Of a DNA stretch of 64,000 nucleotides, positions 37,594-39,424 are shown one piece after another. The DNA comes from Nitrososphaerota archaeon (GTDB taxonomy: Archaea; Thermoproteota; Nitrososphaeria_A; Caldarchaeales; Calditenuaceae). Both the position numbers and the translations under genes were made by a program. Under the pieces are notes generated by a model, which saw only the letters and a program-made list of their open reading frames with translations, did not search any database and was not told the origin of the DNA. The stretch is from NCBI GenBank assembly GCA_009889515.1, contig WUQR01000068.1, positions 62,001-126,000 on the forward strand. The letters run 5' to 3'. Every line of letters starts with the position of its first letter. Position 1 is the first letter of the stretch.

Positions 37594-37618
37594 CAGCTTG
37601 CCCAGCTATTCCGAGGAC

Positions 37619-39043
37619 ATGAGGGTGCGGGGGTTCGGGGGTGTGGGCGAGGTTGGGGGGAATAAATTCTACATCGAGGCCCGGGGAGAAGGCATATTCA
37701 TCGACTTCGGCATAAGCTATGCCTGTAGGAGACGCTATTTCGGATTCTTTCTGAGGCCCAAAAAGTTCTCGCTACTTGCCTCGCTAATTGCATCTGGCTC
37801 TGTTCCTCTTATCAGAAACCTCTACGACGGAGAACTCTTCGACCCCACCGGCCTCACAGGCGAGGTCCTTCGCAAGGCCCCAGAACTGAACGTACAGGGC
37901 ATAGTTGTCAGCCACCCCCACACAGACCACATAGGCCACATCTCGCTACTGCGTAAAGACATCCCCGTCTATCTCGGTGAAGGGAGCTATGAGATAGCCA
38001 AGACGAGGGAGATGACCAAGACAGCGAAGACGATAGAAGATAAAATATTCGTTGATGGAGAGAGGCCGGTCCACCTCTTCAGGACGGGCAGCAAGATTAA
38101 GATAGGCTCGTTCGAAGTGATTCCAATACATGTGGACCACTCGGTTCCAGGCTCTTACGGCCTTATAGTACACTCGCCGGAGGGGAGTGTAGCATATTCG
38201 GGTGATCTGAGGCTTCATGGGCCTAAGAGCGAGTTTACAGAGGAGTTTGCAGAGGCCATCGCTTCACAGGGCGTTGACGTGGTGATGATGGAGGGGACCC
38301 GGATAGGCGAGGAGGACCAGGCGACGGAGGCGGATGTGGAGAGGAGTCTAACCCGCAACATTGCGGAGAGGAGGGGATTAGTAGCGGTGCTCACAGGTCT
38401 CCTAGACTACGACCGCTTCCGCTCAATCGTCTCAGCCTCCGAGGCAGCGGGAAGAATAGTCCTCGTCTCACCTAGAATGGCCATGATGCTCAACACCTTT
38501 AGAAATCTCAGAGTCATGCCTGAGGACTTCCTCCCGGGCAAGGGGAAGGTTGAAGTTCTGGTCGAGAGGAAGGGGAGCGGTCTGCTTGACAAGCATGACT
38601 ACCATGGCTGGGAGAGAGAATACTTGGATAAACTCCTAGACAAGGGTTTGCCGTTGCTGACAGACTTGGACGTCGCGGCCTATCAGAACAAGTACACAGT
38701 AGTCCTAAACTCGCCTGACGACGTCTTAGACCTACTACTGATGAGGCCCGTCGAAGACTCCATTTTCATCTACTCGACTAGCGAGCCTCACAACGAAGAG
38801 CAGGAAATAGACAGGGAGCGGATAGACAACTGGCTCTCAATACTTGGCATGAAGAGCGTACAGGCCCATGCCTCAGGCCACGCCGGCAGGGGGGAGCTGG
38901 AACACATAATACAGACTGCCCGCCCCAAGAGGGTAATACCGATACACACCGAGACCCCAGAGCTATTCCAGCCCCTTCTAAGCCGGGCCGCCCCCGGCTC
39001 AACGCTTATAAACCTCCACCCCAAGACCCCAACCACAATATAA
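37619..39043 (+). CDS. Metallo-beta-lactamase fold protein, RNase J-like
   Basis: 474 residues from the ATG (MRVRGFGGVGEVGGNKF). The zinc motif HPHTDHIGH (about residue 100), HVDHSVPGSY and YSGDLRLHG give the hydrolytic core; a beta-CASP-like region follows, with ASGHAGRGEL and IPIHTETPE near the end as in RNase J and CPSF nucleases. It should process or degrade RNA, either by 5' exonuclease or endonuclease activity. Sequence differs enough in the beta-CASP part that a general hydrolase cannot be ruled out. Confidence 0.82.
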   Translation: MRVRGFGGVGEVGGNKFYIEARGEGIFIDFGISYACRRRYFGFFLRPKKFSLLASLIASGSVPLIRNLYDGELFDPTGLTGEVLRKAPELNVQGIVVSHPHTDHIGHISLLRKDIPVYLGEGSYEIAKTREMTKTAKTIEDKIFVDGERPVHLFRTGSKIKIGSFEVIPIHVDHSVPGSYGLIVHSPEGSVAYSGDLRLHGPKSEFTEEFAEAIASQGVDVVMMEGTRIGEEDQATEADVERSLTRNIAERRGLVAVLTGLLDYDRFRSIVSASEAAGRIVLVSPRMAMMLNTFRNLRVMPEDFLPGKGKVEVLVERKGSGLLDKHDYHGWEREYLDKLLDKGLPLLTDLDVAAYQNKYTVVLNSPDDVLDLLLMRPVEDSIFIYSTSEPHNEEQEIDRERIDNWLSILGMKSVQAHASGHAGRGELEHIIQTARPKRVIPIHTETPELFQPLLSRAAPGSTLINLHPKTPTTI

Positions 39044-39134: not shown

Positions 39135-39311
39135 ATGCCACGGGAGTTTGTCGTTGTAGAGTCAAAGGTTAGGGAGCTGCTGCCGGAGGGTATTAGACTG
39201 AGCAGTGACGCACTCCAGGGACTCGACGCCGTCGTCAGGCAGGCGATCCAAAAAGCCGTAGAACGCTGCAAGGCAAACAACAGGAAGACAATAATCAAGG
39301 AAGACTTCTAA
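39135..39311 (+). CDS. Short histone-fold protein (DUF1931-like)
   Basis: 58 residues. FVVVESKVRELLPEGIRLS then a long central helix (QGLDAVVRQAIQKAVERCKA) and NNRKTIIKEDF follow the strand-helix-helix-R-K-T pattern of the histone fold; the NNRKT turn before a final acidic helix is characteristic. Proteins of this size in archaea are annotated as DUF1931 or histone-like and probably act as dimers that bind DNA or contact partner proteins. It has its own promoter between the RNase J-like gene and the C/D RNA. Full archaeal histones (about 67 residues) are slightly longer. Confidence 0.78.
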   Translation: MPREFVVVESKVRELLPEGIRLSSDALQGLDAVVRQAIQKAVERCKANNRKTIIKEDF

Positions 39312-39338: not shown

Positions 39339-39347
39339 CATTTATCT
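39339..39347 (+). promoter_or_regulatory. TATA box of the C/D box RNA
   Basis: CATTTATCT, with the RNA's terminal stem starting about 27 bases downstream, so the RNA is probably transcribed from its own promoter. Confidence 0.55.
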
Positions 39348-39369
39348 CCCAAATTTTTAGGCTATACTG

Positions 39370-39424
39370 TGGGTGATGATAGCGGGTATTTCTGAGCTGT
39401 GATGAGGATACCCGCTCTGACCCA
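39370..39424 (+). ncRNA. C/D box guide sRNA
   Basis: All four boxes are perfect: C GTGATGA 39373-39379, D' CTGA 39392-39395, C' GTGATGA 39399-39405, D CTGA 39417-39420, with a 12-base first guide, a 3-base D'-C' spacer and an 11-base second guide. TGGG (39370-39373) pairs with CCCA (39421-39424) as the terminal stem of the kink-turn. Such RNAs bind L7Ae, Nop5 and fibrillarin to place 2'-O-methyl groups on rRNA or tRNA. The guides AGCGGGTAT and ATACCCGCT are reverse complements of each other, which is odd. Targets were not determined. Confidence 0.85.

Follow-up and report, generated by a model that had tools for sequence, protein, structure and literature searches.

The question raised by this locus is why a C/D box RNA of the archaeal family Calditenuaceae (Caldarchaeales) should carry two guides that are complementary to each other. 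Within the window, which here denotes the whole analysed stretch of 64,000 nucleotides, the sequence-only reading had offered two explanations for this RNA and considered both unusual: either methylation is guided on both strands of one rRNA or tRNA helix, or the guides pair with each other and regulate the RNA. The nine-base complementarity itself is exact, as had been noted (AGCGGGTAT in one guide is the reverse complement of ATACCCGCT in the other), and a 9-bp complement arose in 6 of 200,000 trials with random 12-nt guide pairs. The analysis described below strongly favors the first explanation: the element is very probably a double-guide archaeal C/D box sRNA that would direct 2'-O-methylation at A496 and G475 of the 16S rRNA.

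The features of the locus are listed in Table 1. The boxes follow the ordered RUGAUGA/CUGA scheme of C/D box sRNAs, and both guides are within 10–12 nt. A direct reading bears out the earlier description of perfect C, D', C' and D boxes, in that all four are exact to the consensus. When both strands of the window were scanned, the strict four-box pattern had this single match, and no further four-box C/D sRNA was found in the window by the strict or two looser patterns. The 4-bp terminal stem that had been proposed is valid insofar as TGGG (39370–39373) can pair with CCCA (39421–39424); however, the C box begins with the last G of TGGG, and some congeners lack the stem.

Table 1. Coordinates in the window, strand and supporting evidence for the sRNA and its parts
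Feature	Position	Strand	Basis
TATA-like promoter element (putative) ATTTAT	39340–39345	+	about 27 nt 5' of 39370; conserved in the genus
C/D box sRNA, including the possible 4-bp terminal stem	39370–39424	+	sequence; sub-threshold Rfam matches over the same span
C box GTGATGA	39373–39379	+	sequence; invariant in the genus save for G/A at the first base
D' guide TAGCGGGTATTT, 12 nt	39380–39391	+	sequence; 16S pairing
D' box CTGA	39392–39395	+	sequence; kept in every homologue collected
Spacer GCT between D' and C' boxes	39396–39398	+	sequence
C' box GTGATGA	39399–39405	+	sequence; genus alignment
D guide GGATACCCGCT, 11 nt	39406–39416	+	sequence; 16S pairing
D box CTGA	39417–39420	+	sequence; genus alignment

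The TATA box reported upstream was recovered as the TATA-like element of Table 1; the TATA-like stretch TTTATCTC is identical across the 6 congeners, and ATTTAT would act as the promoter for transcription of the sRNA. Between this element and the C box, a block AATTTTTA (39352–39359, forward strand) is also invariant in the six congeners, which exceeds the need of a plain spacer. Directly 5' of the sRNA lies a 58-aa ORF (39135–39311, forward strand) with 95–100% identity within the genus. It showed no Pfam or NCBIfam match, but its sequence weakly resembles small PDB chains with a histone fold (8fvx, 8cmp and 9qt0 DUF1931; E-value = 2e-4 to 2e-3), which suggests that the product is probably a small single-histone-fold protein. 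A gene for an RNase J-like beta-CASP protein with Lactamase_B_2 and RMMBL domains is found at 37598–39043 (forward strand). In a different family of the Caldarchaeales, several genomes (loci L110, L112 and L125) encode a homologue of this protein (31–33% identity) less than about 2 kb from the sRNA, in a gene order that differs from the RNase J-like/sRNA neighborhood of the window.

The exact guide 9-mer occurs 25 times in the organism's own 2.1-Mb genome, and one of these occurrences (C139:414475–414483) is within the 16S gene (C139:413485–414976, minus strand). Both guides were scanned against this 16S sequence, oriented as rRNA. The D' guide forms 10 consecutive Watson-Crick pairs with 16S 493–502 (AAUACCCGCU), placing A496 (A535 in E. 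coli) at the N+5 position, opposite the fifth base from the D' box. The D guide forms 8 bp, including one G-U, with 16S 473–480 (CGGGUGUC), with a C-U mismatch at position 2 and G475 (G514 in E. coli) at the N+5 position from the D box. The E. coli numbering was counted from the 530-loop sequence GCCGCGGUAA, by which 16S 485 corresponds to E. coli 524. The two target stretches face each other in helix 18, which forms the stem of the 530 loop (512–515 with 536–539), and the two N+5 sites are separated by 21 nt in the 16S sequence.

Only 7 of 3000 shuffled D' guides equalled the real one anywhere in the 16S and 23S sequences. About 4.5% of the shuffled D guides matched a site of equal quality within 100 nt, and thus the assignment of the D guide rests on family evidence. 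By the target rule of Dennis et al. (PMC4644070), at least nine consecutive Watson-Crick base pairs to rRNA must span the N+5 position, with relaxation permitted for double guides; the D' guide exceeds this length, whereas the D guide alone falls short of it and is accepted only under the relaxed rule. The rRNA search that had been proposed as a check therefore yielded, for the D' guide, a match above the nine-base mark. Among the 44 tRNA genes found, no match of at least 9 Watson-Crick bp was detected, and the best tRNA matches were rejected as short, G-U-containing or on the wrong strand.

The pairing of both guides with helix 18 could be followed in the 28 genomes with both the sRNA and a 16S sequence, since position 4 of the D guide and position 8 of the D' guide had been left free in the search pattern. 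The helix-18 pair 513–538 is G-C in 15 of these genomes, U-A in 12 and C-G in one. Position 4 of the D guide is Watson-Crick complementary to 16S 513 in all 28 (15 C-G, 12 A-U and one G-C), and in every genome position 8 of the D' guide pairs with 538, by a Watson-Crick pair in 27 cases and by G-U in one; the compensatory changes that had been suggested as a test are present in the relatives. In the C-G case, which is separate from the main split, only the D guide follows the rRNA. Because of relatedness among many of the 28 genomes, the co-variation represents only a few independent changes seen repeatedly. All 28 have the same layout of N+5 sites, and A535 and G514 pair with the guides in every one, a count that is not independent because the search pattern fixed those guide positions. 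Comparison of these sequences supports the view that the guides track the changes in helix 18.

Within the genus, six genomes were examined (this one and five others), and each has the sRNA 3' of the 58-aa ORF and the gene for the RNase J-like protein. The sRNA also occurs, with a drifted D guide, in three genomes from a different genus of the family. A scan for the D' half in 84,980 species genomes gave matches in Caldarchaeales (Wolframiiraptor, Calditenuaceae and Caldarchaeum), Sulfolobales and Vulcanisaeta. Bacterial matches, which have no C'/D half, were discarded as chance; two matches in Bathyarchaeota (L102 and L107) likewise have no matching D guide. One uncultured archaeon (L129, 3080–3101) shows a fitting D' half followed by a degenerate D half, TGACGTCAGTACAGA, and this locus is possibly a decayed or divergent homologue. 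The strict dual-guide pattern was found in 42 of 398 Thermoproteota genomes and gave no match in the reversed control; since portions of both guides were fixed in the pattern, the true number is at least 42. Synteny is firmly kept only within the genus, and homologues with the same layout occur across the Thermoproteota, where convergence between lineages is possible. The phylum-wide distribution with a uniform assignment of boxes nevertheless points to common ancestry, which is favored but not proven.

These data bear on other explanations of the locus. A chance arrangement of boxes, with no gene at 39370–39424, would agree with the outcome of the Rfam search, in which no match was found at the gathering threshold (the best, RF00095 snoPyro_CD, scored 38.3 bits, E-value = 6.5e-7, below the gathering score of 45 that membership demands), and with a gene status that is predicted from the sequence. 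Its probability is nevertheless negligible, as zero strict four-box matches appeared in 200 Markov resamples of the window, homologues occur throughout the phylum, and the six genomes of the genus show hardly any variation in boxes and guides, as the sequence-only reading had required of relatives, yet the sequence 3' of the D box has diverged; conservation of this kind already contradicts chance. It is also extremely unlikely that the primary target of the D' guide is 23S 1144–1155 (AAGTGCCCGCTA, N+5 G1148) and the 16S site secondary. In the organism's own genome, to which the evidence on this site is confined, all 12 positions pair with 23S, but two of these pairs are G-U, including the one at the N+5 position, and the site was rejected on this ground. 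Moreover, position 8 of the D' guide varies with 16S 538 across the phylum, position 12, which is needed for the 23S match, varies between homologues, and the D guide has the facing 16S strand as its target.

The second of the two original explanations, in which pairing between the guides yields a hairpin that regulates the sRNA as an assembly switch or by self-inhibition, draws on a fold predicted for the free RNA in which the two guides form a stem (-22.5 kcal/mol at 37 C, z -3.1). According to ViennaRNA, the guide-guide duplex is about as stable as the duplex of the D' guide with its target (-5.9 kcal/mol each at 80 C), and in this genus the bases at D-guide positions 1, 2 and 8 are a better fit to the D' guide than to the 16S target. 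However, the Watson-Crick run between the guides reaches 9 bp only in this genus, is 7–8 bp in most other Caldarchaeales and drops to 3–5 bp in many other homologues (4 bp in one genome of the same family, G002), whereas pairing of the guides with their targets is retained. In one congener (G008) one of the nine pairs is lost, and in another genome (G324) the D guide tracks a changed 16S base at the cost of guide-guide pairing. Where they can be distinguished, changes in the guides follow the rRNA rather than the partner guide. We consider such regulation very unlikely, and the comparison of homologues does not support it as a conserved function. Read as a double guide for helix 18, the element owes the mutual complementarity of its guides to targets that face each other in a single helix, although helix 18 in itself accounts for no more than five Watson-Crick pairs between the guides. 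It is conceivable, if quite improbable, that the D guide of this genus has drifted toward the D' guide and that the hairpin has been co-opted to keep the free sRNA inactive or to pass the rRNA strands to each other.

The proteins with which a double-guide sRNA would function are encoded in the genome: the fibrillarin gene (C139:998176–998838) adjoins that of Nop5 (C139:997406–998080), and there are two genes of the L7Ae family. The sRNA would assemble with L7Ae, Nop5 and fibrillarin into an RNP, in which the D' guide is predicted to direct 2'-O-methylation of A496 and the D guide that of G475. In helix 18, at the decoding center, each strand would carry one of the two putative methylation sites. 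By gripping both nascent strands before helix 18 closes, the sRNA may also act as a chaperone of folding.

The description of the arrangement as unusual was overstated, as the dual-guide design for helix 18 is already known from other archaea and the sRNA of the window is a well-supported, ordinary addition. Dennis et al. (2015; PMC4644070, Fig. 3b) described four sRNAs of Crenarchaeota, Tte sR114, Iho sR21, Pca sR28 and Sac sR115, in which the D' guide is directed at A512 (E. coli A535); in three of the four, the D guide is directed at G491, at a distance of 21 nt. G491 corresponds to E. coli G514 as derived from A512 = A535 (the published legend prints G515). Matched on the published description, the sRNA of the window has the same D'/D order, sites and spacing, with the D' N+5 at A535 and the D N+5 21 nt 5' of it. 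It differs in that helix 18 of its host has G-C rather than U-A at 513–538, a change matched in both guides, and in that the guide-guide complement is as long as 9 bp. The published double-guide sRNA is thereby extended from Crenarchaeota to Caldarchaeales. Dennis et al. left it undecided whether their four cases reflect a common ancestor or convergence and suspected that simultaneous pairing of both strands is under strong selection, a suspicion supported by guides that follow the pair 513–538. In Rfam, RF00095 snoPyro_CD and RF01139 sR2 (35.2 bits against a gathering threshold of 42) align over the full length of the box architecture (39369–39423) with sub-threshold scores. Further counterparts are N. 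equitans sR15 and sR17 (PMC4644070, Fig. 5; also PMC7994747), which likewise have two guides to opposite strands of one 16S helix and for which a chaperone role was proposed (PMC4644070, Fig. 5). They differ from the sRNA of the window in that for sR15 and sR17 the helices are 28 and 30 and the strands are distant in sequence, whereas the sites of the sRNA described here are 21 nt apart.
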